Assembly: GCF_001927245.1 (NCBI RefSeq)
Contig: NZ_MJUX01000001.1
Coordinates: 806,001-870,000 of the forward strand
Length of the DNA: 64,000 nt
Direction: 5' to 3'
From: Acuticoccus yangtzensis
GTDB lineage: Bacteria > Pseudomonadota > Alphaproteobacteria > Rhizobiales > Amorphaceae
Shown here: piece after piece, positions 8,647 through 25,298 of the stretch
How the letters are laid out: each line of letters opens with the position of its first letter
How positions within the stretch are numbered: position 1 is the stretch's first letter
The notes under the pieces: model-generated
Told to the model about the DNA's origin: nothing
Database searches by the model: none
What the model saw: only the letters and a program-made list of their open reading frames with translations
Program-made: the position numbers and the translations under genes

Positions 8647-11600
8647 TCAGTCCTTCGGCATGCCGTAGCCGCCGGCGGTCGGGGTGATCACGATCACCGC
8701 TTCGCCCGGCTCCAGAAGCGTCTGGTCACAGGGCGCCAGCTCTTCCACCTCGCCGGAGTTGCGGCGCACGAGGGTCTTGCCGACCTCACCCGGCTCGCCG
8801 CCCTTCACGCCAAACGGGGGAACCTTGCGGTGGGAGGCGAGGATGGCGCAGTCCATCCGCTTCAGGAAGCGGATCGTGCGGCTGGTGCCGTCGCCGGCCG
8901 ACCACTCGCCGCGTCCGCCGGACCCTTTGCGGATGTGGAAGTCCTCCAGCACCACGGGGAAGCGCGTCTCGAACACTTCCGGATCTGTCAGGCGCGAGTT
9001 CGTCATGTGGACGTGAACGGCGTCGGTGCCGTCGAAGCCCGGCCCGGCGGGTGAGCCGGAACAGATCGTCTCGTAGTACTGATACTCGTCGTCGCCGAAG
9101 GTGAGGTTGTTCATCGTCCCCTGCGACGCCGACATCGCCTCGAGCGCACCGAACAGCGTGTTGGTGACGGCCTGTGACACCTCCACGTTGCCGGCCACGA
9201 CGGCGGCCGGATAACGCGGGCTCAGCATCGTCCCCTCGGGCACGACGATCTTGATCGGCCGCAGGCAGCCGGCGTTGATCGGGATCGCGTCGTCGACCAT
9301 CACGCGGAAGACGTAGAGCACGGCGGCGCGGGTCACCGGGGCGGGGGCGTTGAAGTTGTCGGCCCGCTGCTCGGAGGTGCCGGTGAAGTCCACCACCGCC
9401 TCGCGCTTCTCGCGGTCGATGGTCAGCTTCACGTGGATGGCGCAGCCCTGGTCCATCGGGAAATGGAACTCGGCGTCGTGCAGCTTGGTGAGAAGCCGCG
9501 CCACGCTCTCGGCGGCGTTGTCCTGCACGTGGCCCATATAGGCCTGCACGACGTCGAGCCCAAAGGCGCCGATCATCTTGCGCAATTCGGCCGCGCCCTT
9601 GGCGTTGGCGGCGATCTGCGCCTTCAGGTCGTTGACGTTCTGGATGTGGTTGCGCACCGGATAGGTGGCCCCCTTCAGGAGCGCGATCAGCTCCTCCTCG
9701 CGGAAGCGGCCCTGATCGACGATCTTGAAGTTGTCGATATAGACGCCTTCCTGCTCGATGTTGGTGGCGAGAGGCGACATGGAGCCGGGCGCGGTGCCGC
9801 CGACGTCGGCGTGGTGGCCGCGGCTCGCCACCCAGAACATGATCTCCTTGTCGTCCGGCCCGAAGACGGGGGTGCAGACGGTGATGTCCGGCAGGTGGGT
9901 GCCGCCGCGATAGGGCGCGTTGAGGCAGAAGACGTCGCCCGGCTTCACCTCGGCATTGTTGGCGACCACGGTTTCCACGGACCGGTCCATGGAGCCGAGG
10001 TGCACCGGAATGTGCGGAGCGTTCGCCACCAGCGCGCCGGTCTGGTCGAAGACGGCGCAGGAGAAGTCCAGCCGCTCCTTGATGTTGACGGAGTAGGCGG
10101 TGTTCTGGAGCGTCACGCCCATCTGCTCGGCGATGGACATGAAGAGGTTGTTGAAGATCTCCAGCATCACCGGGTCGGCCGCGGTGCCGATGGCCACCTG
10201 CCGGTCCAGCGCCTTCACGCGGGTCAGGACGAGGTGGTCCTTTGCCGTCAGCGTGGCGGACCACCCGTCCTCGACGACGACGGTCTGGTTCGGCTCGATG
10301 ATGATGGCCGGTCCCGCCAGGGTCTGGCCGGGGGCGATCGCCTCGCGCCGGACGACACGGGCCTCGTGCCACGCGCCCTTGGAGAAGAAGCGCGCGGTGT
10401 CGCCGCCCTCCACCTCGCCCTCGGTGACGGCCGCGGCCGCCTCCTCGAACTTGGCGCCGCCGCCGATGGCCTCGACCTCGATCGCTTCGACGACGAGGGA
10501 TTTGGTCTCGTCGGTGAAGCCGAAGCGGGCGTGGTGGGCGGCCTCGAAGGCCTCTTTCATGGCGCCGTCCGGCCCGGCGGGGACTGCGATCGGCGTGTCC
10601 GTCCCGGCGTAGCGCACGTGGGCGCGGACGATGAAGGTGATCGCGTCTTCGGCGACGCCCTGTCCCGCGACCTCGCCGCGCGCCTCGTCGATCAGCGGTG
10701 CGGCACCTTCCGTTATGGCGGCCTCGGCCCCCTCGCCCACCGGCACGTCGAGCGCGGAGGTGCGGGTGGAGCGGATCTCGGCAAGGCCCATCCCGTAGGC
10801 CGACAGAAGTCCGGAGAAGGGGTGCAGCAGAACGGTCTTGATGCCGAGCGCGTCGGCCACCAGGCAGGCGTGCTGGCCGGCGGCGCCGCCGAAGGAGTTC
10901 AGCGCGTAGCGGGTGATGTCGTAGCCGCGCTGGACGGAGATCTTTTTGATCGCCTCGGCCATGTTGGCGACGGCGATCTGAATGAACCCGTCCGCCACCT
11001 CCTCGGCGCTGCGCCCGTCGCCCACCTCGGCGGCCATCTCGGCAAATTTGGCGCGCACGGCGTCGGCGTCGAGAGGCTCGTCCTGGCCGGGACCGAACAC
11101 GGCGGGGAATGCCGAGGGGATCAGCTTGCCGACCATGACGTTGGCGTCGGTGACGGCGAGCGGGCCGCCGCGGCGGTAGGCGGCGGGGCCCGGATAGGCG
11201 CCGGCGGAATCGGGGCCGACGCGGAAGCGCGACCCGTCGAAATGGAGGATTGAGCCGCCGCCGGCCGCGACGGTGTGGATCAGCATCATCGGCGCGCGCA
11301 TGCGCACACCGGCGACTTCGGTCTCGAAAGCGCGTTCATATTCGCCGTCGAAGTGGGCGACGTCGGTGGACGTGCCGCCCATGTCGAAGCCGATCACCTT
11401 CTCGAACCCGGCCGAGCGCCCGGTCTCGGCGAGGCCGACGACGCCGCCCGCGGGGCCGGATAGGATCGCGTCCTTGCCCTGGAAGAGCTCCGCCGCGGTC
11501 AGCCCGCCCGACGACATCATGAACATCAGCCGCGCGCCGGTACGCTCGATGTCCAGTTCCTCGGACACCTGCCGCACGTAGCGGCCCAGGATGGGCGAGA

Positions 11601-12240
11601 GGTAGGCGTCGACCACGGTGGTATCGCCGCGCCCGACGAGCTTGATGAGGGGCGACACCTCGTGGCTAACGGACACCTGGGTGAAGCCGATCTCGCGGGC
11701 GACGCGGGCGGCCAGCGCCTCGTGCTCCGGGTAACGGAAGGCGTGCATGAAGACGATGGCGAGCGCACGGTAGCCCTCGTCGAACCGGGCCTGGAGGGCG
11801 GCGCGGATGGCGGCCTCGTCGGCAGCCTTCTCGACCGTGCCGTCGGCGAGGATGCGTTCGTCCACCTCCTCCACGGCATCATAGAGCGCCTCGGGCAGCA
11901 CGATCTTCTTGGCGAAGATGTCGGGCCGGCCCTGGTAGCCGATGCGCAGAGCGTCGCGGAAGCCGCGGGTGGTCACCAGAAGCGTGCGGTCGCCCTTGCG
12001 CTCAAGGAGGGCGTTGGTGGCGACGGTGGTGCCCATGCGCACATCGCCCACGGCGCCGCGCGGGATCGCTTCGCCCTTGGCGAGGCCGAGATGGTCGCGG
12101 ATGCCCTGGACGGCGGCGTCACGATAGGCGTCGGGGTTGTCGGACAGGAGTTTTTTGGCATGGAGTTTGCCTGTTGGATCGCGTCCGATCACGTCCGTGA
12201 AGGTGCCGCCCCGGTCGATCCAGAAATCCCAAGCGCTCAT
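8647..12240 (-). CDS. Single-chain 5-oxoprolinase / hydantoinase (HyuA-HyuB fusion)
   Basis: ATP-dependent amidohydrolase of about 1,197 residues that would open a 5-oxoproline, hydantoin or related lactam ring. The N-terminal half is HyuA-like: [14 protein letters not shown] at residues 5-18 (phosphate-binding loop), an [15 protein letters not shown] motif near 290 and [10 protein letters not shown] near 465. The C-terminal half is HyuB-like: [20 protein letters not shown] near 690, [15 protein letters not shown] and [17 protein letters not shown]. The fused order is that of eukaryotic 5-oxoprolinases and many proteobacterial homologues. The ATG at 12240 is chosen because FWIDRGG follows directly; a start at 12282 is possible. 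It lies downstream of a GntR gene on the same strand. Substrate is open. Confidence 0.93.
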
Positions 12241-12269
12241 GCCTGTACATGCCTCAACAGTCGGAAAGA

Positions 12270-12283
12270 TATGGCATGCCATA
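12270..12283. promoter_or_regulatory. 14-bp perfect palindrome upstream of the oxoprolinase gene
   Basis: TATGGCATGCCATA reads identically on both strands and lies 30 bp before the oxoprolinase ATG, in the 227-nt gap after the GntR gene. FCD-class GntR regulators bind short palindromes of this kind, so it is a candidate operator for the neighbouring regulator. The link is inferred from position. Confidence 0.5.
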
Positions 12284-12467: not shown

Positions 12468-13178
12468 TCAACGTGCGTCCACATCTTCTTCGGCGCTGGT
12501 ATCCACCCCGGGCGCCGCACCGTTGGCCGTGCCTTTCGCACGGCGCCGGTCCTCGCCGATCCGCCGGTAGGACGCGCGCGAGGAGAGAAGATGCGCCCGC
12601 ATCGTCGTCTCCGCCCACTCGGCATCGCGGGCCTCCAGCGCATCGACGAGCTCGCCGTGCTGGCGGTTGCTGCGCGTCAGCTCGGCCCGCGTCCAGTTGT
12701 TGAAGGTCGGGCTCACCACCGGGCGGCGGGCGATGGCGTTGATCATGTCCGCCATCATCGCGTTGCCGCCCTGCGCCCAGATCACGCGGTGGAACGCGGC
12801 GTTATATTCGCGGTAGGCGCGGCGGTCCGGCTCCGCCTCGCCGATCGCACCGTCCATCCGCGCATGCAGATCGCGCAGCTTGGCGATGAACGCGTCGTCC
12901 ACATACTGCACCGCGAGCCCCACCGCGATCGGCTCCACCGCGGCGCGCATGGTGAAGATGTGGATCACCTCGTCGGGGTCCGTCTCCGTCACCACCGCGC
13001 GGCGGTAGGCCTCGCGCTGGATCACCCCTTCGGCCTGCAGCCGGCGCAACGCCTCGCGGATCGGCGTGCGGCTGACCCCCAGCCGGTTGGCGAGCTCCCC
13101 CTCCGGCAGAACGTCGCCGCCGATATAAGTGCCGTCGGCGATCAGCGACCGGATCCGGCTATAAATGTCCTCGGCCAT
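12468..13178 (-). CDS. GntR family transcriptional regulator, FadR/FCD subfamily
   Basis: A 236-residue regulator. The N-terminal winged helix-turn-helix includes LPEGELANRLGVSRTPIREA (about residues 24-43), the GntR signature. An all-helical FCD ligand-binding domain follows (about 75-210), with Asp/His-type metal-site residues in DLHARMDGAI, YNAAFHRVIW and RQHGELVDAL. The last 30 residues are low-complexity. It closes a leftward gene series of importer, hydrolase and regulator (16 nt after the hydrolase stop) and precedes the oxoprolinase gene, so it probably controls this catabolic set in response to a carboxylic-acid-like ligand. Confidence 0.94.
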   Translation of the reverse strand: MAEDIYSRIRSLIADGTYIGGDVLPEGELANRLGVSRTPIREALRRLQAEGVIQREAYRRAVVTETDPDEVIHIFTMRAAVEPIAVGLAVQYVDDAFIAKLRDLHARMDGAIGEAEPDRRAYREYNAAFHRVIWAQGGNAMMADMINAIARRPVVSPTFNNWTRAELTRSNRQHGELVDALEARDAEWAETTMRAHLLSSRASYRRIGEDRRRAKGTANGAAPGVDTSAEEDVDAR

Positions 13179-13194: not shown

Positions 13195-14349
13195 TCAGTG
13201 GAACCCGCGCGCGGCCAGCCAGTCCGACAAAATCGTCGTGGCCTCAGCCAGTTGCGCGGGCTGGCCGACGAAATAGTGGTTCGCTCCGTCGATCAACCGG
13301 AAAGTCTTGTCCTCGGACGCCACCGCATCGTGCACGCGGCGGGTGTGGGGCTGCGGCACCGCGTCGTCCGCCCCGCACTCCACGGCGATGAAGGGGACAG
13401 TCACCGCGCGCCCGGTCACCAGGCTGTCCGCGCGGGTGTGCGCGGGCGACCACTGCGACAGCCAGCTCCGCAGGGTCGAAAACCGCCCCAGCCCCACCGG
13501 GCCGCTGTTCACCGTCTCCGGATTGCCGAGATAGCTCCACCCCGGCCGGCGCCCGTTCGGCTCGATCGTCGGGTCCAGAAAGCGCGGGTCCGCCATCGTG
13601 CGGTGGGTGACGAAGCCGCGCTCCATCTCGGCCCCGCCCTTGGTGCGCAGCCGGTGCAGCGTCTCCTCCACGCGCGCGGTGATCGCCGCCATGCGCGCCG
13701 CCTGCGCCGCGCGGTAGGCGGCGACGAAATCGGGATCGAACGGCACCGGACGGCCGGCATAGAGGTCCAGCGCGGGATCGCGGTCGTCGGGGTTCGCCTC
13801 GTCCTTCACCGAGGGGTCGAGCCATTCGGCCAACAGCACCGCGCGGGAGGAATGGGCGGCGAGATGCATCACCGCGTCCGCCGGGATCAGCCCCGCCCCG
13901 GCGATGTCGACCGGATCGCCAGCAGGAGTCGCCTCGATCGTCGGCCGCTCGGCCTGCGATTGGTACAGCATCGCCAGCGAGCCGCCCCCGCTCCACCCGC
14001 ACAGGACGACACGCTCATATCCCCACTCCTCCCGCGCCGCGCGGATATAGCGGCCGAGGTCCAGCAGCACGTTCTCCATGATCAGCGCCGTGTCGTTGCG
14101 CTGGTAGCGGCTCCCGGCGCACAGGACGTGGTGGCCGAGCTCGGCCATCCGGCGCGGCAGTGGCAGCAGATGCAGCGTCGACGCCGGGTGCATGAACACC
14201 AAAAGCGTGGACGACGGCACACCCGCCGGGCGGATCAGGATGCCCTCCATGTGGGTCAGCCCGGTGGTGCCGGCAAAACCGTAGGTCTCGGTGAAGGCGC
14301 GGTTGGCCTCCAGGGTCAGGTGCTTCCAGTCGAAGATGAGGTCGTGCAT
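13195..14349 (-). CDS. Alpha/beta hydrolase
   Basis: A 384-residue serine hydrolase fold. The nucleophile elbow is CGWSGGGSLAMLY near residues 122-134. An oxyanion-region segment VFMHPAST lies near 51-58, and late residues DDAVPQPHTRR and GANHYF supply candidate acid and base. Proteins of this kind hydrolyse esters, amides or C-C bonds; substrate unknown. The ATG at 14349 lies 3 nt after the ABC ATPase stop, so it is part of the importer operon, which suggests it acts on the imported compound or its first intermediate. Confidence 0.85.
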   Translation of the reverse strand: MHDLIFDWKHLTLEANRAFTETYGFAGTTGLTHMEGILIRPAGVPSSTLLVFMHPASTLHLLPLPRRMAELGHHVLCAGSRYQRNDTALIMENVLLDLGRYIRAAREEWGYERVVLCGWSGGGSLAMLYQSQAERPTIEATPAGDPVDIAGAGLIPADAVMHLAAHSSRAVLLAEWLDPSVKDEANPDDRDPALDLYAGRPVPFDPDFVAAYRAAQAARMAAITARVEETLHRLRTKGGAEMERGFVTHRTMADPRFLDPTIEPNGRRPGWSYLGNPETVNSGPVGLGRFSTLRSWLSQWSPAHTRADSLVTGRAVTVPFIAVECGADDAVPQPHTRRVHDAVASEDKTFRLIDGANHYFVGQPAQLAEATTILSDWLAARGFH

Positions 14350-14352
14350 CGC

Positions 14353-15456
14353 TCAGCTCGCGGCGTCGGCGAGGATGCCCACATCCTCGTCATGGGTGAC
14401 CCGGCCGGCGACCGGGCGGGCAAGGTCGGGGCGCAGCCGCGCCGCGCCGTCGTCGTGGATGTGGCAGCGCACGCGCCGCCCGCCCGGCTGGTCCGACAGC
14501 TCCGGCTCAACCGCCTCGCACAGCGGCGCCACGAACGGGCAGCGCGACGAGAACCGGCACCCCGGCGGCACGTTCAGCGGCGAAGGGACGTCACCGGTCA
14601 GCTCGTGCCGCTCCGGCGCCTCGGCCGGGTCCATGCGCGGGATCGCCGCGATCAGCCGCTCCGTATAAGGGTGCAGCGGCTCGGCCAAGATCTCCTCCGC
14701 AGGCCCCTCCTCGACGATGCGGCCGAGATACATCACCGCCACATGGTCGCAGATGTAACCCACCGTGGCGATGTCGTGGGAGATGTAGAGAACGGCGAGG
14801 CCCAGTTCGCGCGACAGCTCGTCGATCAGCTCCAGCACGCTCGCCTGGATCGACACGTCCAGCATCGACACCGGCTCGTCCGCGACGATGAATTTCGGCT
14901 CCAGCACCAGCGCGCGGGCAATGGCGATGCGCTGGCGCTGCCCGCCGGACAGATCGCTCGGATAGCGGTCGACGTTCTCCGCCGGAGGAATACGCACCAG
15001 GTTCATCGCCCGCGCCACCCTCTCCCGCCGCTCCGCCGCGTTGCCGATGCGGTGGATGATCAGCGGCTCCTCGATGATCTGGCCGATGGTCAGCCGCGGG
15101 TTGAGCGACGAATAAGGGTCCTGGAAAATGATCTGCGCCTGGCGCCGATAGTCCTTCAGCGCGCGCCCCTCGGCCCTGGTGATGTCCTCACCGCGATAGC
15201 GCACCCGCCCGCCCGTCGGCTGATACATGCGCACCAGCGACATGCCGAGCGTGGACTTGCCGCAGCCGGACTCGCCGACGAGGCCGACCACCTCGCGCTC
15301 GCGGATCGTCACGTCCACACCGTCCAGCGCCCGCGCCACCTTCGGCTTCTGGCCCACCAACGCGCTGATGATCCCGCTGCGCGCCTGGAAATGCGTCTTC
15401 AGCCCCTCGGCCTCGATCACGGTCGCCCGATCGCCCTCTCCCCTCCGCTCGCTCAT
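14353..15456 (-). CDS. Dipeptide/oligopeptide-type ABC transporter ATP-binding protein (DppF-like)
   Basis: Second ATPase of the importer, about 367 residues. It has Walker A GESGCGKST near residue 57, the ABC signature LSGGQRQRIAIARAL, Walker B FIVADEPVSMLD, and a C-terminal oligopeptide-transporter domain with cysteine-containing CRFSSRCPFVAPLCE, which in relatives can hold a 4Fe-4S cluster. The start ATG 15456 overlaps the stop of the preceding ATPase by 4 bp (ATGA), indicating translational coupling. Longer reading of the frame upstream runs antiparallel or out of frame in the previous gene and is discarded. Confidence 0.95.
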   Translation of the reverse strand: MSERRGEGDRATVIEAEGLKTHFQARSGIISALVGQKPKVARALDGVDVTIREREVVGLVGESGCGKSTLGMSLVRMYQPTGGRVRYRGEDITRAEGRALKDYRRQAQIIFQDPYSSLNPRLTIGQIIEEPLIIHRIGNAAERRERVARAMNLVRIPPAENVDRYPSDLSGGQRQRIAIARALVLEPKFIVADEPVSMLDVSIQASVLELIDELSRELGLAVLYISHDIATVGYICDHVAVMYLGRIVEEGPAEEILAEPLHPYTERLIAAIPRMDPAEAPERHELTGDVPSPLNVPPGCRFSSRCPFVAPLCEAVEPELSDQPGGRRVRCHIHDDGAARLRPDLARPVAGRVTHDEDVGILADAAS

Positions 15457-16517
15457 GCCGCGGCCCTCATCTTGCGCCACGTTTCGGGAAGCGCCGCCGC
15501 GGCGCGGAACTCTTCGGCGCGGTCGGTGAAGTGGCAGGCGGCCTGCTGCGGCCCAGCGGCGGCGACGGGCGGCGGCGTGGTGCGGCACAGGTCCGCCGCG
15601 AACGGGCAGCGCCCGGCGAAGCGGCAGCCCGGCGGCGGACTGGCAAGGTTCGGTACCACGCCCGGAATGGAGATCAGCGGCTGACGGGGCGCCCCGCGGA
15701 CGGGAAGCCGCGGGAAGGCGTTCTGCAGACCCATCGTATAAGGGTGCAGCGGACGGCCCAGCACCTGCCCCGTCGGCCCGCTCTCCACCACCTTGCCGGC
15801 ATACATCACGACGGTCGTCTCGCAGGTCTCCGCCACCACCGCGATATCGTGCGTGACGAGCACCATGGACCGGCGCATGTGGGCGTGAATGCCGCGGATG
15901 CGCGCCATGATCTGCGACTGCATGATCGGATCCAGCGCGGTGGTCGGCTCGTCGGCCAGCAGCATCCCCGCGTTCAGCGCCAGCGCCATGGCGATCACCG
16001 CGCGCTGGCGCATGCCGCCGGAGAACATGTGCGGGAACTCGGTCAGCCGCGCCGCGGGCAGGCCGACGAGGGCGAACATCTCCTCCGCCCGCGCCCAGGC
16101 CGTCGCCCGGCCGACCGGCTCGTGGGCGCGGATCGCCTCCACGATCTGATCGCCGATCGAATAGACCGGGTCGAGCGAATTCATCGCGCTCTGGGTGATC
16201 AGCGCGATCCGGTTCCACCGCACGTCCCTCAGCGCATCGTCGGTGAGGCCGAGAATGTCGTCCCCGTCGAGAAGCGCGCGCCCGGTCAGCCCCGTGCCTT
16301 CCGGCAAAAGCCCCATCAGCGCCTTCACCACCGTGCTCTTGCCGCACCCGCTCTCGCCCACCAGGCCGAGATTGGTCCCCGCCGGCACGGTGAAGCCGAC
16401 GTCCTCCACCGCGTGGAACGGCCCGCGCGCGGTGTTGTAGGTCACCGACAGACCGTCCACCCGAAGCTCGGCCGCGGGCTTGGCGGCGAGCCGCGCATTC
16501 AACTCCGCCAGCGACAT
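15453..16517 (-). CDS. Dipeptide/oligopeptide-type ABC transporter ATP-binding protein (DppD-like)
   Basis: First ATPase of the importer, about 354 residues. Walker A is GESGCGKST near residue 45; the signature is FSGGMRQRAVIAMAL; Walker B is MLLADEPTTALD; the C-terminal oligo-HPY domain has CRFAGRCPFAADLCR. The ATG at 16517 overlaps the upstream permease stop by one base (TGATG). Both ATPases are intact, so the importer should be functional as a heterodimeric motor. Confidence 0.95.
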   Translation of the reverse strand: MSLAELNARLAAKPAAELRVDGLSVTYNTARGPFHAVEDVGFTVPAGTNLGLVGESGCGKSTVVKALMGLLPEGTGLTGRALLDGDDILGLTDDALRDVRWNRIALITQSAMNSLDPVYSIGDQIVEAIRAHEPVGRATAWARAEEMFALVGLPAARLTEFPHMFSGGMRQRAVIAMALALNAGMLLADEPTTALDPIMQSQIMARIRGIHAHMRRSMVLVTHDIAVVAETCETTVVMYAGKVVESGPTGQVLGRPLHPYTMGLQNAFPRLPVRGAPRQPLISIPGVVPNLASPPPGCRFAGRCPFAADLCRTTPPPVAAAGPQQAACHFTDRAEEFRAAAALPETWRKMRAAA

Positions 16518-17464
16518 CAGCGCCTCCTCAGCCGCGGGTTGGTCTGCTCCTCGTAGGCGCGGCCGATCAGGTAGAGCGAGGAGACGAGGAGAACGAGCGC
16601 CACGGACGGCGGCACCACCCACCACCACGCGGTGCGCAGGTTACCGCTGGAGAAGGCGGTGTTGAGCATCTGCCCCCACGAGATCGCCTTCGGATCGCCG
16701 AGGCCGAGGAAGGACAGGCTCGCCTCCGTCAAAATGGCGAAGGCGACGGACATGGTGATCCACAGGAACACCACGCGGAACACGTTGGGCAGGATGTGCC
16801 GCATGATGATGTGAAAGTGCGACGCCCCCGCCGCCCGCGCCCATTTGACGTAGACGCGCTCCTTCTCCGTCAGCACCGCCGAGCGGATGATGCGCGCCCC
16901 GTTGCGCCAGAACAGGATGGTGATGACGAGGATGATGTTCTCGATGCTGGGGCCGAGCAGCGCCACCGCGACGATGGCGAAGGGCAGCGTCGGGATCGAC
17001 AAGGCGACGTCGGTGATGCGCATCAGGACATCGTCGACGAGGCCGCCGAAATAGCCGGAGAGCACCCCGAAAAGCGTGGAGATGAAGCCCACCGCGACGG
17101 CCGCCACCAGCCCCACCATCAGCGCCACGCGGAAGCCGTAGAGGAACTGGCTGAGCACGTCCTGGCCGAAGCCTGTGGTGCCGAAGGGGTTGGCCGCGGT
17201 CGGCGGGGAGAGGCGGTTGAGGCGCCCGGCCTCCGTCATCATCGCCTGAAACGGGTCGTAAGGCGCCAGCCACGGGGCGAGCACCGCGAGGACCACGAAC
17301 ACGGACAGGACGACGACGCCGATCAGCGCGAAGCTGTCCCGCATCATCAGCCGCAGCGAGTCCCACGCCGCCGCCCACGGGCTGCGGCCGCGGATGGTGA
17401 TCGGCGTGGCGCCGGACGAGGACACGGGGCCGGGCACGGGGGCGGGATCGGGCGCGACGGTCAT
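16517..17464 (-). CDS. Dipeptide/oligopeptide-type ABC transporter permease (DppC-like)
   Basis: About 315 residues with six predicted membrane spans. The first hydrophobic helix (FALIGVVVLSVFVVLAVLAP) follows a Pro/Ala-rich tail of about 40 residues. The sequence LAPYDPF after helix 1, NPFGTTGFGQDVLSQFLYG, and the coupling motif VKWARAAGASHFHIIMRHIL are typical of DppC. The ATG at 17464 overlaps the DppB stop by 4 bp. An open extension upstream to 17620 only overlaps the neighbouring permease and is not used. Confidence 0.95.
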   Translation of the reverse strand: MTVAPDPAPVPGPVSSSGATPITIRGRSPWAAAWDSLRLMMRDSFALIGVVVLSVFVVLAVLAPWLAPYDPFQAMMTEAGRLNRLSPPTAANPFGTTGFGQDVLSQFLYGFRVALMVGLVAAVAVGFISTLFGVLSGYFGGLVDDVLMRITDVALSIPTLPFAIVAVALLGPSIENIILVITILFWRNGARIIRSAVLTEKERVYVKWARAAGASHFHIIMRHILPNVFRVVFLWITMSVAFAILTEASLSFLGLGDPKAISWGQMLNTAFSSGNLRTAWWWVVPPSVALVLLVSSLYLIGRAYEEQTNPRLRRR

Positions 17465-18426
17465 TTGTACACCACCCTCGGGTCGAGCTTGCCGTAGACG
17501 AGGTCGGCGGCGAGGTTCGCCAGCACGATCATCACGGCGAGGAGGAAGAAGGCGGCCTGCGCCAAGGGGTAGTCCTGCCGCGTCACCGCCAGCACCAGCT
17601 CCCGCCCGACGCCCGGCCACGAGAAGACGATCTCGATCACCACGATGCCGGCGATCGTCTCCGCCAGCGCCGGAAACAGCCAGGTGATCAGCGGCAGCAT
17701 GGAATTGCGCGCCGCGTGCCAGGCCACCCGCCGCTGCGGCACCCCCTTGGCGCGCACCAGCTCGATATAATCTTCGGTCCGGTTCTCCACGACGCCGGAG
17801 CGCATCAGCAGGAGATTCTCGGGCAGGAAGTATATGATGACCGCCACCAGAGGCAGCGTCAGATGGTGCAGGAAGTCCAGCGTCAGATAGCGTGCGAAAC
17901 CCGTCGTCTCACCCGGATCGCCCATGCCGAAGCCCGGAAACCAGCCGAGCGTGCTGGAAAAGACCGTGAGAAGCGCGATGCCGATGACGAAATTGGGCAC
18001 CCCGCGGATGACGGTGGCGAGGAAGATGCCCGACCGCTCCAGCTTGCCGCCGCGCCGCGCCCAGCCGACCGCTGTGCCGATGGCCGCGCCGATCGCCGCC
18101 CCCAGCAAAAGCCCCGGCACGGCGATCCACAGCGTGTTGACGATGAGCGGGAACAGCACCTCCCACACCGGCTTGCGGTAGAAGAAGGACGCGCCGAAGT
18201 CGCCCTGCAGCAGATTGCCGAGATAGGCGATGTACTGGTCCCACAAGGAGCCGGTCAGGCCCCAGCGTTCCAGCAGCGCCTGGCGCGCCTCGTCGGTCAG
18301 GCCGCGCTCCAGCAGAATGGCGGTCGGGTCGGCGGGCATCACGCGGAACATGAAGAACATGATTGTGGTGACGGCCCAGACGACCAGAACGCTCTGCGCA
18401 AGGCGGCGGAGGATATAGGCGCGCAT
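17461..18426 (-). CDS. Dipeptide/oligopeptide-type ABC transporter permease (DppB-like)
   Basis: About 321 residues. The N-terminus MRAYILRRLAQSVLVVWAVT is the classic DppB start, so the ATG at 18426 is taken. RVMPADPTAI after the first helix and the coupling loop YIELVRAKGVPQRRVAWHAA are diagnostic. About six membrane segments. It is first in a run of overlapping genes (DppB-C-D-F then hydrolase) and is separated from the binding-protein gene by 171 nt that contain a very stable hairpin. Confidence 0.95.
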   Translation of the reverse strand: MRAYILRRLAQSVLVVWAVTTIMFFMFRVMPADPTAILLERGLTDEARQALLERWGLTGSLWDQYIAYLGNLLQGDFGASFFYRKPVWEVLFPLIVNTLWIAVPGLLLGAAIGAAIGTAVGWARRGGKLERSGIFLATVIRGVPNFVIGIALLTVFSSTLGWFPGFGMGDPGETTGFARYLTLDFLHHLTLPLVAVIIYFLPENLLLMRSGVVENRTEDYIELVRAKGVPQRRVAWHAARNSMLPLITWLFPALAETIAGIVVIEIVFSWPGVGRELVLAVTRQDYPLAQAAFFLLAVMIVLANLAADLVYGKLDPRVVYK

Positions 18427-18512
18427 GGCACAACTCGGGGCAAAGGTCGGGGCGTGACGGGGCCGCACCGCTCACGGTCCGGCGGAGCGGAGCAGCAATA
18501 AAGGTCGGCGGT

Positions 18513-18597: not shown

Positions 18598-20223
18598 TCA
18601 CTTCTTGGGGTAGTGCAGGCGGCCGCTGGAATCCCAGCCGTAGCCCGCCTCTTCCAAGGTGGCGCGCGCGGCCTCCACGTCGAAAGGGATCTCCGGCAGG
18701 TCCTTGTTGTGCCACATGCCGATCTGCTCCGGAACGGGGCCTTCGCCCGCCGGAACCGCAAAGCCGAGCCAGCCTTCGATCGCCGCGCGCTGCTTCGACG
18801 TCGCCTGCCTGAGCGCCTTGCGGAAGGCGGGGTCGGTGAACGGCGCTTTCTGGTTGTTCAGCCAGACCAGCATCGACCCGTGGGACGGGATCTCGAGGAA
18901 GTCGAGGTGGTCGTTCTGCATCGCGAGGTCACTCATCGACGCCACGGGAAGCACCATGCTGGCGATGTCGCCGGTGCCATCCAGCATCGCCGAGCGGATG
19001 GCGTCCGCCTGCCCCAGAGCGAGACGGCGCAGACCGTCATATTCCGGCGCGTGGAAGTGCTCCTTGAAGGCGTCGAGCTGGTGCGTCTCGTTCACCCGCC
19101 AGGAGCGGAACTTGAACGGGCCGCTGCCGATCACCGCATTCTCGGCCACCACGTCACGTGCGATCATGTCGCCGTCATAGTCCGCCCACACGTGCTCGGG
19201 CAGGATGAAAACGTAAGGCAGAACCGTCGTCACGAACGACGCATCCGGCGTCTTCAGGCTGACGTTGAAGGTGAGGTCGTCCACCTTCTCCGCCCCGGCG
19301 AGGTTGCCGATGCGCGAGGACATCGCCGGCGGCTGCAGCTCCACGATGGTGTTGATCGTGAACACCGCGTCGTCCGCGCTGACGGGCTCGCCGTCGTGGA
19401 AGGTCATCCCCTCGCGCAGGGTGATCTTCACCGTTTGCGGGTCGGTGAACTCCCAGGCGCTGGCGGCCCAGGGCACCGTGTCACCGTCGCTGTTGTTCTT
19501 GGCGAAGGTGTCGTAGACGAAGCGGATCCAGCCCACCGCGCCCTCTTCGGCGAGCGGGTTGTAGGTCGTCACGTCCTCATAATGAGCCCAGTCGAGGATG
19601 CGGTCGTCGGTCAGCGGGCGGGCGGACAGCCACGGATCGACCAGCCCTTCGTGCGCGGCCACCGGCGCAGGGCTCGTCACGTTCTCCCATTTGTCGCTGT
19701 TCCAGAGGATGCCGTAGACGGTGTTCGTCGCCGGCCACCAGGGCATCGTGTCGTAGAAATATTGCTGCGCGTCGTGGACGACCTTCAGGCGCTCCACCGG
19801 GTCGACGATCTCGCGCTGGCGCTGGACGATTTCGGTATAGGCCTCGTCGCACCACTTGGCGCCGTTGCGGCGCGCCCCGCAGGCGCCCAGATCGTGCAGC
19901 CAATAGGTCGGGTCCACGCGGTCCGGGTCGGCACCGACGGTGAAGACGGCCATGTCCTCCAACCCGCCGCCGACGATGATGTTGGAGATGAAGCTGCTGA
20001 ACTGCACCGGCTGCATCTGGAAGCTGAGGCCGAGCTTGGCCCACTCCTCCGACATCACGCGGGCGGATTGCTCGTACATCGGCCCCATGTCGGTGGCGTA
20101 GTAGGCGATCTGGAGTTCGGGAACCGGCTCGCCCAGGTCCTGGGCCATGGCGGAGCCGCAAAGCGCGAAAAGTCCGGCCGGCAGCCACAAGGGCGCAGCC
20201 AGCCGTCTGACGGCGGTTGTCAT
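18598..20223 (-). CDS. Family 5 (peptide-type) substrate-binding protein, apparently circularly permuted
   Basis: Periplasmic receptor of the Dpp-like importer, 541 aa, with signal peptide (LPAGLFALCGSAMAQ). Segment order is unusual. Residues about 36-190 (LQIAYYATDMG, then EWAKLGLSFQMQPVQ, ADPDRVDPTYWL, VDPVERLKVVHDAQQYFYDT) are what SBP_bac_5 proteins normally carry after the hinge, at their C-terminus. The normal N-terminal part comes next: TTYNPLAEEG, then VKITLREGMTFHDGEPVSAD near 265 and SGPFKFRSW near 365. The protein ends at RATLEEAGYGWDSSGRLHYP, the point where ordinary members continue into the part found here at the front. The order is therefore CB-AB rather than AB-CB, a circular permutation, with a new N-terminal secretion signal. 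Nothing suggests frameshift or truncation. Confidence 0.88.
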   Translation of the reverse strand: MTTAVRRLAAPLWLPAGLFALCGSAMAQDLGEPVPELQIAYYATDMGPMYEQSARVMSEEWAKLGLSFQMQPVQFSSFISNIIVGGGLEDMAVFTVGADPDRVDPTYWLHDLGACGARRNGAKWCDEAYTEIVQRQREIVDPVERLKVVHDAQQYFYDTMPWWPATNTVYGILWNSDKWENVTSPAPVAAHEGLVDPWLSARPLTDDRILDWAHYEDVTTYNPLAEEGAVGWIRFVYDTFAKNNSDGDTVPWAASAWEFTDPQTVKITLREGMTFHDGEPVSADDAVFTINTIVELQPPAMSSRIGNLAGAEKVDDLTFNVSLKTPDASFVTTVLPYVFILPEHVWADYDGDMIARDVVAENAVIGSGPFKFRSWRVNETHQLDAFKEHFHAPEYDGLRRLALGQADAIRSAMLDGTGDIASMVLPVASMSDLAMQNDHLDFLEIPSHGSMLVWLNNQKAPFTDPAFRKALRQATSKQRAAIEGWLGFAVPAGEGPVPEQIGMWHNKDLPEIPFDVEAARATLEEAGYGWDSSGRLHYPKK

Positions 20224-20468: not shown

Positions 20469-21731
20469 TTGAGACGTTCTTGGGTGGGCGGCGCCAACGC
20501 CGCCGAAACGGATTTTCCGTTGGCGAACCTGCCCTTCGGGGTGTTCTCCACCACCGCGGAGGGACCGCGCTGCGGCGTTGCCATCGGCGATCACGTGGCC
20601 GACCTCGCCGCCCTGGCAGCGGCCGGCCTGCTGCCGGGCGACTGCGGCTTCGACGCGCCGGCGCTGAACACCTTCATGGCGCTCGGCCCGGCGCGCTGGG
20701 ACGAGGTGCGCACCCGCCTCACCGCGCTCCTCGCCGAAGACGGCGACGGCGCCCTTCGAGGCGATGCCGCGCTGTGCGGCCGCGCCTTGGTGCCGCTCGC
20801 CGAGGTGGCGATGCACCTCCCCTTCCGCGTCACCGGCTACACGGACTTTTACGCAGGCCGCCAGCACGCCTTCAATTCCGGCTCCATCCTGCGCGGGCCG
20901 GACAATGCGCTGACGCCGAACTGGCCGCACATGCCGATTGCCTACAATGGGCGGACCTCCACCGTGGTGGTGTCCGGCACGCCGGTGCGCCGCCCGCTCG
21001 GCCAGGTGATGGGGCCGGACGGTGACGGCCCCGTCCTGTCGCCCTCGCGGCGGCTCGATATCGAGGTGGAATTCGGCGCCGTCGTCGGCGTGCCGACGCG
21101 CATGGGCGACACGCTCACCGTGGCCGAGGCGTGGGAGAACATCTTCGGGTTCGTCCTCCTGAACGACTGGTCCGCGCGTGACATCCAGCGCTGGGAGGGC
21201 CAGCCGCTCGGCCCCTTCCAGGCGAAGGCCTTCGCCACCACGATCAGCCCGTGGGTCGTCACCCGCGCCGCGCTGGAGCCGTTCCGCACCAAGGGCTGGC
21301 CGCGCGACAAGGCGCTGCTCCCCTACCTCGACGAGCCGGCCGACTACTTCTTCGACCTCACGCTCGAAACGCATCTCTGCCCCAAGGGCGGCGCCGCAAC
21401 CCGCATCGTCTCCACCAACACGCGCCACCTCTACTACAGCGCGCCGCAGCTCCTCACCCACCACGCCTTGTGCGGCTGCGCGATGAACGCCGGCGATCTC
21501 CTCGGCTCCGGCACCATCTCCGGGCCCGAGAAGTCGAGCTTCGGCTGCCTGCTCGAGCAGACATGGGGCGGGCGTGACCCGGTCCCGCTGGACGGTGGCG
21601 AACGGTTGTTCCTGGAGGACGGCGACACCGTCACCATGACCGGCTGGGGCCAGGGCGAAGACTACCGGATCGGATTCGGCCGCTGCGATGGCGAGATCTT
21701 GCCCGCACGGCCCAACGTTGGGGCAAATTGA
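20469..21731 (+). CDS. Fumarylacetoacetase-like hydrolase
   Basis: A 420-residue protein matching fumarylacetoacetase, which cleaves a beta-diketone C-C bond in tyrosine/homogentisate breakdown. Family marks: N-terminal FAA domain with LPFGVFST, then FRVTGYTDFYAGRQHAFNSG (metal-site Asp and catalytic His around residues 120-135), DIEVEFGAVVG, NDWSARDIQRWEGQPLGPFQ, and GSGTISGPEKSSFGCLLE near 345. The start is a TTG at 20469 with AGGGAGGG immediately upstream; a GTG at 20484 lacks such a site. It runs into the next FAH-family gene with TGATG overlap. No homogentisate dioxygenase is present here, so the substrate may be another acylpyruvate. Confidence 0.92.
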   Translation: MRRSWVGGANAAETDFPLANLPFGVFSTTAEGPRCGVAIGDHVADLAALAAAGLLPGDCGFDAPALNTFMALGPARWDEVRTRLTALLAEDGDGALRGDAALCGRALVPLAEVAMHLPFRVTGYTDFYAGRQHAFNSGSILRGPDNALTPNWPHMPIAYNGRTSTVVVSGTPVRRPLGQVMGPDGDGPVLSPSRRLDIEVEFGAVVGVPTRMGDTLTVAEAWENIFGFVLLNDWSARDIQRWEGQPLGPFQAKAFATTISPWVVTRAALEPFRTKGWPRDKALLPYLDEPADYFFDLTLETHLCPKGGAATRIVSTNTRHLYYSAPQLLTHHALCGCAMNAGDLLGSGTISGPEKSSFGCLLEQTWGGRDPVPLDGGERLFLEDGDTVTMTGWGQGEDYRIGFGRCDGEILPARPNVGAN

Positions 21732-22585
21732 TGAAACTCTGCCGATATGACGACAACCGCCTCGGCGTGGTGCGCGGCGACATGGTCCACGATGTCAGCG
21801 CCGTCTTGGACACGCTGCCCGCCGTGCGCTACCCGCTGCCGGACCATGACCCGCTGATCGCCGCCCTCCCGACGCTGCGCGACCGGATCGACGCGCTCGC
21901 CGACGCGGCGGTGCCGGTGCCGCTCGCCGGCGTCCACCTGCTGCCGCCGGTCGCCTCGCCACGCAAGATCATCGGCGCCCCGGTCAACTACCGCCTCCAC
22001 CATGACGAGGCGCTGGCGGACCCCACGATCCACCACCAGACCAACATCATGCCGATCGACAAGGCGGGCCTCTTCCTGAAGGCCACCAGCTCGCTGATCG
22101 GCGCCTCGTCGCCCGTGGTGCTGCGCCATCCGGACAAGCGCAACGACCACGAGATCGAGCTCGTCGTGGTGATCGGCCGCCGCGCCGACCGCGTCACGCA
22201 GGCCGATGCGCTGGACTATGTGGCGGGCTACGCCATCGGCCTCGACATGACCGTGCGCGGTACCGAGGAGCGCAGCATGCGAAAGTCCATCGACACCTAC
22301 ACGGTGCTGGGACCGTGGATGGTGACGGCGGACGAACTCACCGACCCCTCCGCGCTGACGATGGAACTCACCATCAACGGCTCTACACGGCAGAAGGCGA
22401 CCACCGCCGACATCCTGCGCGACGTGCCGACCCTGATCGAGCGCGCCTCGTCGTTCTACACGCTGATGCCGGGCGACCTCATCTATACCGGCACGCCGGA
22501 AGGGGTCAGCGCGGTTCAGGCCGGGGACGTGATGGTGTGTTCGATCGAGGCGATCGGCACCATGCAGGTCGCCGTCACCGTCTGA
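21731..22585 (+). CDS. FAH-superfamily hydrolase (acylpyruvase / hydratase-decarboxylase type)
   Basis: A 284-residue single-domain member of the fumarylacetoacetate hydrolase fold. Visible blocks are SPRKIIGAPVNYRLH (residues 78-92), FLKATSSLIGASSPV, HEIELVVVIGRRA (metal-binding Glu pair), GLDMTVRGTEERSMRKS, and GDLIYTGTPEGVSAV. Such enzymes cleave acylpyruvates or hydrate/decarboxylate 2-oxo-acids in meta-cleavage pathways. Translation is coupled to the preceding fumarylacetoacetase-like gene through a one-base overlap, so the two probably act on consecutive intermediates. It converges on the antiporter gene. Confidence 0.92.
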   Translation: MKLCRYDDNRLGVVRGDMVHDVSAVLDTLPAVRYPLPDHDPLIAALPTLRDRIDALADAAVPVPLAGVHLLPPVASPRKIIGAPVNYRLHHDEALADPTIHHQTNIMPIDKAGLFLKATSSLIGASSPVVLRHPDKRNDHEIELVVVIGRRADRVTQADALDYVAGYAIGLDMTVRGTEERSMRKSIDTYTVLGPWMVTADELTDPSALTMELTINGSTRQKATTADILRDVPTLIERASSFYTLMPGDLIYTGTPEGVSAVQAGDVMVCSIEAIGTMQVAVTV

Positions 22586-22640: not shown

Positions 22641-25127
22641 CTAAAGCTTCGTCAGCACCTCGCCCCGGCGTTCGGCGCTCGTCCTGACTGCGTCGCGCAC
22701 CGCGGGGCTGCGGTCGAGCAGGCGCCGGAACCTCGCCTCGTCGAGCACCAGCAGCGTCGACAGCGTCATCGACCGCGCTTCCGCACGCAGCGGGCGCTGT
22801 TCCAGAATGGAGAGCTGACCGAACATCTCGCCCGGTCCCAGCCGCCACGTCTGACCCGCCCGCTCCAGCTCCACAGCGCCCGACGCGATGAAGTAGACGC
22901 TCTTCGCCACCGTGTTCTTGGCGATGATCACGTCACCGATATTGGCATATTGGGTGATGAGGTTCTGGCCGAGCCGGCGGCGGGTCGGCTCGTCGAGATC
23001 GGCGAACAGGGGGAACTGCTGCACCAGCTCGGCGCGCTGCAGCACGAGGTCCAGCCGCGGGCGCCGTTCGGCCGCGGCGCGCCGGGCGGAGATCCCCTCC
23101 ATCAGCGCCGTGTGAAGCTCCGCGCCGATCAACCCGTCATCGCGCATCGCCTGATATTCCCGCTCCTCCAACCGCACCGCGGTGCGGCGGATGAAGCGTC
23201 GCTCCATCTCCTCGGCATAGCCCGGATATTGCAGCCGCAGCCCATCCAGCGCGGTTTCGACATTTTCCACACGCCGCGCCACGAGATCGTGCAGCAGCTC
23301 GGCCACCCGGCGGCCGTGAATGCGGCGGATGCGCCCGTCGATGAAGCCGTCGAGATCGCGCAGGATGAGGCGATGGGACAGGAGCGCCTCGAACCGGTCC
23401 GCCGTCATCCGCCCCAGCGGCCCGGCAATGCCGAGCCGGTTCTGCAGGTCCGCGGCCCATTGGAAGGAGCGGCCATAGGCGAGACTCTCGCGCGCCGCCC
23501 GCTCATACTGCGCCCGCCCGCCCCGCGCCGCCTCGATCAGCCGGTCCGCGTCGGACAGCATCGTTTCGGACAGCCGCGCCGAAATCATCCGCTCGTGCAT
23601 GCGGGCGATGATGGTGTCGCGCTCCGCACCCGCGACGGCGATCAGCCCCAGGGTGATGAGATCGCGGTCGAGAAGGTCTTCGTGGTCCTCCGCCTCCTTC
23701 ACGGCGCGGTCCAGCCGCTCGGCGAACCGCTTCGCCTCGGATCGCACGATGGTCTGCGTCAGCTCGTAATTCTCGGTCGACCGCGCCACGTCCTCGCGCA
23801 CGCTCTGCAGCGCCACGGCGACCACCTGGCGCGACAACGCCTCGTCGATCGGCGACAAGCGGTCGAGGCCCAGCCGGCCGATGACCCAGCGCAGCGTGGT
23901 CCCCTGGACGATGAGCGTGAAGAGAACGAACCCGGTGGCGAGGATGCCCACCACGCGCTTCGTCTCCACCGGCACGCGGATGCTCTCCGTCACCGCCAAT
24001 GCCAGCGCCAGGGTGACCGCCCCGCGCAGCCCGCCCCACAGGATCGCCGCGCGGTAGGCCCCGCCCACCACCGGCGAAACCTTCAACCGCGACAACAGCG
24101 GCAGAAGCCCGAACAGGATGACCACCCGCGCCAGGATCGCGGCGACCACCACGACGCCGGTGAGGGCGAGGTCGTGAAGGGTCACACCCTCGAGAAGGCG
24201 GGGGATGAGGAGCGCTGCGAGAATGAAGATGAGCGCCCCCGCCCAGTGGGCGAGCAGGCTCCAGATCTCGCGCATGTTCGCCCAGGCCTGGGGCGGCAGG
24301 CGGCCCGGCGCGGTCACATTCAGCGTCAACCCCGCCGCCACCACGGCGATGACGCCGGACGCGCCGATCATCTGCTCGGCGACGATATACGCAAGATAAG
24401 GAAGCGCCACCGAGATGGAGATCTGCGCCAATTCGTAACGCGCGAAAACCGCCATCACCGCCACCGCGAGGCGGGCCAGAACCAGCCCCGTCGCCGCACC
24501 GCCGACGATCAGCACCGGGAACTGCCCCAGCGCGCTGAGCAGCGACGGGTTCGGGATCCCCATCATGACGAAGCTCATGAAGAGGCCGAAGAGGGCGATC
24601 GCGGCCGCGTCGTTGAGAAGGCTCTCCCCCTCGATGATGCGCGCCAGCCGCTGCGGCGCTGAGATCGAGCGGAAGATCGTCACCACCGCCGAAGGGTCCG
24701 TGGTCGACACGATGGAGCCGACCAGAAGACACGCGGCGAGCGGCAGCGCCCCGGTGAGGAAGAGGCCGTATCCCACCGAAAGCGTCGCCACCACCACCGC
24801 GACGACGGCGAGCACCAGGATCGGCACCCAATCGTCCAGCATCCGCCGCACGTCGATGCCGAGCATGGCTTGAAAGAGCAGCGTCGGCAGGAAGACGTAG
24901 AGGAAGACGTTGGAGCGGATCGGGAAATCCAGGATCGCTTCGGCGACGGGGTTGAAGGCGTCCGTCAAGTCGGTGCGCAGCAGGAAGGTGGCCCCGAGCG
25001 CGATGAGGATGCCGAGCCCCGCCAGGATCACCGTGTAGGGAAGCCGCAACCGCGCCGCGAGCGGTTCCGCCGCCCCGATGACGAGGAAGAGCGAGGCGAT
25101 GACGGCAGTGACGACGATGATGTCCAT
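22641..25127 (-). CDS. CPA1-type Na+/H+ antiporter with C-terminal cyclic-nucleotide-binding-like domain
   Basis: About 828 residues. The N-terminal half is a 12-13 span sodium/proton exchanger with the ion-site helix GSIVSTTDPSAVVTIF and the IEGESLLNDAAAIALF motif. The middle (about 400-690) is a long charged helical cytosolic region. The C-terminal 120 residues form a cNMP-type beta-roll, starting near PLFADLDEPTRRRLGQNL and including YFIASGAVELERAGQTWRLG, GPGEMFGQLSILEQRPLRAE. The architecture resembles NhaP-like exchangers with a regulatory roll. ATG 25127 is favoured because membrane sequence follows directly; a start at 25172 is possible. Exports Na+ (or K+) against protons; isolated gene. 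Confidence 0.92.
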   Translation of the reverse strand: MDIIVVTAVIASLFLVIGAAEPLAARLRLPYTVILAGLGILIALGATFLLRTDLTDAFNPVAEAILDFPIRSNVFLYVFLPTLLFQAMLGIDVRRMLDDWVPILVLAVVAVVVATLSVGYGLFLTGALPLAACLLVGSIVSTTDPSAVVTIFRSISAPQRLARIIEGESLLNDAAAIALFGLFMSFVMMGIPNPSLLSALGQFPVLIVGGAATGLVLARLAVAVMAVFARYELAQISISVALPYLAYIVAEQMIGASGVIAVVAAGLTLNVTAPGRLPPQAWANMREIWSLLAHWAGALIFILAALLIPRLLEGVTLHDLALTGVVVVAAILARVVILFGLLPLLSRLKVSPVVGGAYRAAILWGGLRGAVTLALALAVTESIRVPVETKRVVGILATGFVLFTLIVQGTTLRWVIGRLGLDRLSPIDEALSRQVVAVALQSVREDVARSTENYELTQTIVRSEAKRFAERLDRAVKEAEDHEDLLDRDLITLGLIAVAGAERDTIIARMHERMISARLSETMLSDADRLIEAARGGRAQYERAARESLAYGRSFQWAADLQNRLGIAGPLGRMTADRFEALLSHRLILRDLDGFIDGRIRRIHGRRVAELLHDLVARRVENVETALDGLRLQYPGYAEEMERRFIRRTAVRLEEREYQAMRDDGLIGAELHTALMEGISARRAAAERRPRLDLVLQRAELVQQFPLFADLDEPTRRRLGQNLITQYANIGDVIIAKNTVAKSVYFIASGAVELERAGQTWRLGPGEMFGQLSILEQRPLRAEARSMTLSTLLVLDEARFRRLLDRSPAVRDAVRTSAERRGEVLTKL

Positions 25128-25298
25128 GAACGGGTAGCGGCCTAGCGTCCGGGGGGAAAGCCCGTTCAGCATGGCATCATTCGCCCGATTTCACAGCACT
25201 CATCGGCGCTTGGCCGCTACCGCGCCATGTCGCAGGCGCCCGCTCCCGGCGGACGATCCGCACCGCCTCACCGTCTTATGCGGCCGTCGCCGCCTTGC

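Follow-up and report, generated by a model that had tools for sequence, protein, structure and literature searches.

A very probable natural circular permutant among family 5 substrate-binding proteins, forming an old lineage with its own Dpp-type permeases in Bacteria and Archaea

Does a receptor gene of an ABC importer in Acuticoccus yangtzensis encode a protein of the DppA/OppA/AppA type (family 5) in which the two parts of the chain have changed places, and, if so, is this a local accident or the mark of a family? In binding proteins the ordinary order of segments is taken as ancestral. The gene lies in the window, i.e. the whole stretch of 64,000 nucleotides that was analysed, and the initial annotation had proposed that the first 190 or so mature residues correspond to the C-terminal part of ordinary SBP_bac_5 proteins, that the standard N-terminal half comes second, with a boundary near residue 200, and that the protein stops where ordinary members continue. 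The window protein is indeed a family 5 receptor with its C-terminal segment placed ahead of its N-terminal and middle part. Its reading frame starts with the ATG at 20223, which is preceded by a purine-rich stretch that by eye resembles a ribosome-binding site, and is divided as follows:

18598..20223, minus strand: circularly permuted family 5 substrate-binding protein, 541 aa
20143..20223, minus strand: signal peptide, residues 1-27, its end set by eye after AMA
19636..20124, minus strand: residues 34-196, counterpart of the C-terminal segment in ordinary members (AppA chain 359-514), from profile matches
19603..19635, minus strand: residues 197-207, short joint of the old C-terminus and the old N-terminus, from the gap between the AppA matches and low pLDDT
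18622..19602, minus strand: residues 208-534, matching ordinary members in their N-terminal and middle part (AppA chain 22-345), from Pfam and profiles
18601..18621, minus strand: residues 535-541, new C-terminus, two residues past the G-x-L-x-x-P motif, from a 13-member alignment

Aligning both parts separately with DppA/OppA structures had been set as a test beforehand, and each part found its counterpart in DppA and AppA, in swapped order. A phmmer search of the PDB matched E. coli DppA (1dpp) twice, with residues 248-528 of the window protein corresponding to residues 45-340 of the 1dpp chain and residues 48-162 to residues 359-472 (independent E 0.00056). With a 63-row profile, B. subtilis AppA (1xoc, 520 residues) was covered nearly end to end by two swapped matches (207-528 to chain 22-345; 33-195 to chain 359-514), which meet at 195/207, as the proposed boundary demands, and thus place the junction of the old termini within about 11 residues. 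Other solved structures also gave two swapped matches, and the 63-row profile gave no single full-length match among the best 60 of 103 PDB matches at E<=1e-20. PF00496 (SBP_bac_5), which is the sole Pfam family matched by the window protein at E<=0.001 and is also found in 63/63 permuted members at E<=0.01, scores 162.4 bits against a gathering score of 32.4. This match is confined to residues 250-534, i.e. to positions 3-284 of a profile of 368, so that the profile runs out where the window protein stops; residues 208-541 do not hold a full SBP_bac_5 fold. Nor are residues 36-200 an unrelated domain, since a profile of the ordinary C segment matches residues 43-176 (E 1.1e-14), while the profile of the ordinary N segment matches residues 210-531 (E 1.3e-64). 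No NCBIfam model reached its cut-off on the window protein.

A search for homologues with a like segment order brought out 99 distinct ORFs, which form a lineage (see below). Among 159 distinct ORFs of at least 300 aa that contain both segments (179 loci, segment profiles taken from the permuted set), these 99 show the swapped and 60 the ordinary order, with none ambiguous; the swapped ones include the contig-end fragments L080 and L125, and the ordinary ones the fragments L074 and L114. Profiles made from ordinary proteins matched both segments, C segment first, in 99/99 permuted ORFs (worst C-segment E 4.6e-14), a test that is not wholly independent because the 99 had been chosen by the permuted profiles, which also set the borders of the ordinary segments. 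The C-segment profile gave no match at E<1e-2 in 99 letter-shuffled permuted proteins, and the direct phmmer matches to DppA are independent of both segment-profile tests. Throughout loci L049-L143 the best ORF was a single collinear domain against the permuted profile (95/95, L080 and L125 being truncated at contig ends). None of the 99 permuted ORFs carries a second C segment at its end, as a duplicated C-N-C intermediate would. The window genome holds 18 further matches, none of which spans both segments in one match.

An end shortly after the G-x-L-x-x-P motif is the rule among the permuted ORFs, though not universal. The C-terminus lies 1-11 residues past this motif in 13 aligned members, and 74 of the 99 ORFs end within 11 residues of it; in 7 it is followed by a tail of 14-41 residues, and in 18 it is absent from the last 60 residues. 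A TGA that had appeared inside the match in 4 of 10 Deinococcota members proved, on the fetched loci, to be the normal stop after the end motif.

How might such a protein fold and operate? An AlphaFold2 model from the single sequence was useless (pLDDT 35.1) and was replaced by one calculated with 63 permuted relatives, which reaches a pLDDT of 90.8 and a pTM of 0.88. Ten-residue blocks with pLDDT below 70 occur only at residues 1-30 (48, 47, 60) and 181-200 (62, 64), which in terms of the model correspond to the signal peptide and approximately to the joint of the old termini. Foldseek recovered family 5 structures with this model, aligning 341-396 columns with TMq 0.37-0.50 in the best 50 matches listed; such short alignments are expected if a sequential aligner follows one segment only. 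Two long strands of the model, at residues 162-175 and 440-455, look like the lobe-crossing strands of the fold, as judged from the strand list and general knowledge. Lobe I would then be continuous, comprising about residues 176-440, and lobe II would be assembled from the first and last segments, the reverse of the situation in ordinary members.

In this rearrangement, a short linker near residue 200 would have come to connect the old N- and C-termini, and the chain would have been opened anew in the short loop that leads from the last helix of the N-terminal and middle part (LLEEAGY) to the following strand, with the export signal now carried on the new N-terminus. According to the strand list of the model, the termini, which lie on lobe I in ordinary members, would both be on lobe II after this cut, making lobe I the continuous and lobe II the split one, and the signal peptide would leave from lobe II. 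A crude motif search detected a lipobox-like motif within the first 110 residues of 24 of the 99 permuted proteins, including archaeal and Gram-positive ones; being located on the new N-terminus, a lipid anchor in those members would also hold lobe II. Most likely, the two lobes are predicted to close on the ligand as they do in ordinary cluster C receptors and would hand it over to the DppB/DppC channel and the two ATPases encoded directly downstream. In E. coli, DppB reaches with its scoop motif into the interlobe cleft of DppA, with E41 and R42 of DppB binding R383 and D436 of DppA (PMC12136057, accessible text). If that numbering is the one of the 535-residue 1dpp chain, D436 would by eye align with D101 of the window protein, and the adjacent R102 and D104 are nearly invariant in 63 permuted members. 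No clear difference between permuted and ordinary systems emerged in the scoop loop of DppB, in a search that did not find the motif in 42 of 86 permuted rows and 18 of 39 ordinary ones.

The window operon contains the gene set of a Dpp/Opp-type importer, i.e. two permeases and two ATPases, downstream of the receptor:

17461..18468, minus strand: DppB-type permease, 130 bp downstream of the receptor (Pfam BPD_transp_1)
16517..17620, minus strand: DppC-type permease (ORF as listed, true start probably further in; Pfam BPD_transp_1, OppC_N)
15453..16628, minus strand: DppD-type ATPase with oligo_HPY tail (Pfam)
14353..16347, minus strand: DppF-type ATPase in the distal half of a long ORF (ABC_tran at residues 341-493)

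By analogy with known importers, this Dpp-type system would bind a ligand and take it up in an ATP-driven manner. The arrangement recurs with the permuted receptors. Among the 95 permuted loci with enough room (4 of the 99 have none), 87 have a dppB-like ORF no more than 400 bp downstream of the receptor, and dppB, dppC and an ATPase gene are found within 5 kb in 56 of the 58 with more than 4.5 kb of room; for ordinary loci with room, dppB lies within 400 bp in 41 of 57, a comparison in which the query, the DppB of the window, favours detection of its own kind. In a tree of DppB proteins, from which near copies had been dropped, the 27 rows encoded beside permuted receptors make up one side of a branch, with 36 ordinary rows on the other (support 100), and the DppB of the window is a member of the former clade. 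This clade constitutes evidence, apart from the receptor sequence, for a coherent old transporter lineage.

At loci L114 and L126 (Spirochaetales) and L074 (Roseibium), a further set of Dpp-type permease and ATPase genes stands upstream of the permuted operon and is read in the same direction; in L114 and L074, a fragment of an ordinary-order receptor precedes this set. Unlike the usual order, an ATPase gene stands between the permuted receptor and the first permease in L062, L063 and L189. At six loci from Halomonas and spirochaetes (L083-L085, L097, L098, L123) a single ATPase ORF, scoring 478-527 bits with DppF, replaces the two, as if DppD and DppF had been fused.

The permuted receptors are distributed over several bacterial phyla and extend to Halobacteria. 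A scan of 84,980 species, with one genome per species, yielded 571 stretches with 467 relatives of the query (segment order unsorted), and 79 of the best 80 stretches cover 480 or more of the 541 query residues, L080 (333 residues) being cut by the end of its contig. Relatives of the permuted receptor are present in Stappia, Paracoccus, Devosia, Aminobacter, Billgrantia and Halomonas, among others, and also in Anaerolineae, Trueperaceae, Spirochaetaceae, Tissierellia, Acidimicrobiia and Halobacteriales. In the order to which the window genome belongs, a near full-length collinear match was found in 15 of 397 genomes and 10 of 141 genera (E<=1e-60). Surveys with the 63-row profile, in which each count includes the centre genome of its survey, were positive at E<=1e-110 for 11 of 289 genomes of the class, for 1 of 299 of the phylum of the window (the window genome itself) and for 5 of 148 in the phylum of a Natronosalvus genome (L093), and, at E<=1e-85, for 2 of 201 genomes from the phylum to which an Anaerolineaceae genome belongs, 1 of 198 from the phylum of Alkalispirochaeta, 6 of 199 from that of a Bacillus and 10 of 111 from Deinococcota (the phylum of a Trueperaceae genome); with the best 3-13 candidates scored per genome and with strict limits, survey counts are low estimates. 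The distant permuted proteins L156 and L175 of Natronosalvus fall below the survey limit of E<=1e-110.

At the limits of these surveys, the gene is present as a single copy in 15/15 positive genomes of the order, 10/11 of the class, 10/10 of Deinococcota and 8/8 of a further survey, and in two copies in 3/5 positive genomes of the Natronosalvus phylum and 3/6 of the Bacillus phylum. The Natronosalvus genome that carries L144 encodes two more distant permuted receptors of 620-647 aa (L156 and L175), i.e. at least three altogether. Among plasmids, 21 records match at E<=1e-30, each of them (21/21) covering 80% of the query or more; 16 of these matches are annotated as ‘ABC transporter substrate-binding protein’ and 5 are without annotation. 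The patchy distribution suggests horizontal spread.

Do the permuted receptors share one origin? In an unrooted tree with 30 rows of permuted and 52 of ordinary receptors (the latter mostly from the order of the window and six other genomes), calculated with the segments restored to ordinary order and without fragments and near copies, the permuted rows make up one side of one branch with an SH-aLRT support of 99, and the N segment alone supports this branch with 98. When the C segment is left free, the permuted rows do not form one group (2 changes needed). A C-segment tree that holds them together has a likelihood above that of the free tree (p-AU 0.81), and so does one that holds them together with the ten ordinary rows adjacent to them in the N tree (p-AU 0.74), with neither test being strong since the C segment provides only 167 columns. 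It is supported, then, that the permuted family is a lineage, and its origin is most simply explained by one gene having been permuted once. A chimera, to which one family 5 receptor gave its C segment as the front part and another its N-terminal and middle part behind, and which spread thereafter, would have the same fold and segment order and would differ in its history alone. It would fit with the lack of correlation, from one segment to the other, in how far ordinary proteins lie from the permuted clade (rho 0.13, p 0.35), and a like possibility is raised by the authors of the MglB-2 structure for their own protein (PMC4990184, accessible text); yet the C-segment data, with their 167 columns, reject neither the permuted rows as one clade nor this clade joined by the ten ordinary rows, and we consider such a fusion unlikely.

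An assembly error, a frameshift or a recent local rearrangement in the window genome, for which no support was found, is refuted by independent genomes: the swapped order appears in many independent assemblies, with receptors ranging from 85% down to about 25-30% identity, which leaves this explanation a practically negligible chance. It is also highly improbable that the receptor no longer serves transport and has become, e.g., a sensor or a decaying copy. This could apply to the 8 of 95 permuted loci with room where no dppB-like ORF lies within 400 bp, or to L059, L130, L156 and L175, where the stretch examined downstream contains neither permease nor ATPase, but it is at odds with 56 of 58 permuted receptor genes with more than 4.5 kb of room heading a permease and ATPase set and with the complete transporter set of the window itself. 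Taken as a whole, the data are best explained by a natural circular permutant of family 5 (cluster C) that forms an old lineage and is accompanied by permeases of a lineage of their own, a reading that we hold with high confidence.

Some of the genes that surround this importer may reflect what it takes up:

13195..14349, minus strand: alpha/beta-hydrolase-like gene, kept in close relatives
12468..13178, minus strand: GntR/FCD regulator, kept in close relatives
8647-12282, minus strand: fused hydantoinase/oxoprolinase A-B gene, 1211-aa ORF
20469..21731, plus strand: fumarylacetoacetase, divergent, kept in close relatives (TIGR01266, 501.8 bits, cut-off 375.3)
21728..22585, plus strand: FAA-hydrolase family protein, divergent, kept in close relatives
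22641-25172, minus strand: sodium/hydrogen exchanger with C-terminal cyclic-nucleotide-binding domain

Eight close relatives (L064-L069, L075, L078), whose receptors are 77-85% identical, all have a common cluster of two divergent FAA-hydrolase genes, the receptor, the B, C, D and F genes, the alpha/beta hydrolase and the GntR regulator. The fused hydantoinase gene, for which caprolactamase subunit alpha is the best NCBIfam match, far below its cut-off, was not found in the examined flanks of these eight. More widely, a Pfam comparison of 94 of 233 picked neighbour ORFs gave 133 families, with no control set, and none among the best 25 of these 133 is dominant (IclR 5, mandelate-racemase type 3, M24 peptidase 3). 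Four of seven plasmid neighbourhoods, a subset of the 21 plasmid matches and likewise with no control set, contain peptidases M20, M28 or M81, hydantoinases, creatininase, D-aminoacylase and dipeptide epimerase, and the other three are without these enzymes. Small amide- or peptide-like compounds might tentatively be put forward as the likeliest ligands, and the ligand in the window could perhaps be one ending in an aromatic ring-cleavage product.

Natural permutants among binding proteins are already known. MglB-2 (Tp0684) of Treponema pallidum, an ABC ligand-binding protein whose structure has been solved, is naturally circularly permuted; it binds glucose, belongs to structural cluster B and was assigned to a class termed ‘Type Ic / Cluster Bc’; in the accessible text, its final 70-100 residues are said to have escaped sequence searches, a fourth crossing near the hinge is described, and its homologues are reported mostly from treponemes and Gram-positives (PMC4990184). 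It differs from the window protein in structural cluster and in the position of the cut, and homology to MglB did not appear in Pfam, where the window protein matches PF00496 only at E<=0.001. Glycine-betaine-binding proteins, on the one hand, and molybdate-binding proteins and CysB, on the other, are also related by permutation, a relation recognized by structure between families of different function with less than 24% identity (PMC2395249, accessible text). In contrast, permuted and ordinary family 5 receptors belong to one sequence family. AppA (1xoc), DppA (1dpp), NikA and OppA share with the window protein both segments, homologous over nearly the whole length, and ordinary cluster C systems have the same DppB/C/D/F type of operon; the permuted receptors differ from them in segment order, termini, signal peptide and, where present, the position of the lipid anchor. 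Besides the two precedents, the literature on permutants mostly concerns engineered proteins (fluorescent sensors), and no permuted family 5 receptor is described in the open-licence literature among the matches listed. Thus, a family 5 permutant that spans Bacteria and Archaea and has its own permease lineage appears to be new.

To our knowledge, natural circular permutants spread over both Bacteria and Archaea are uncommon, and here the permutation affects a very common kind of nutrient receptor. In the annotations examined, i.e. those of 16 of the 21 plasmid matches, the permuted receptors pass as ordinary ones, and the Pfam model covers only the second part of the window protein. They may represent an unrecognized class of Dpp-type importers in Bacteria and Archaea, which would have arisen once by permutation of the receptor and in which receptor and dedicated permease would evolve as a unit; with the termini in lobe II, the receptor would be held by the opposite lobe, through the export signal and also, where Gram-positives and haloarchaea are concerned, through the lipid anchor, so that the channel would be met with a tether unlike that of ordinary cluster C receptors, a proposal to which we give an even chance. 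Permuted and ordinary receptors, each with permeases of their own, amount to a natural experiment on how a flytrap receptor works with its channel, which bears on the question of which lobe must be continuous or tethered for this joint function.
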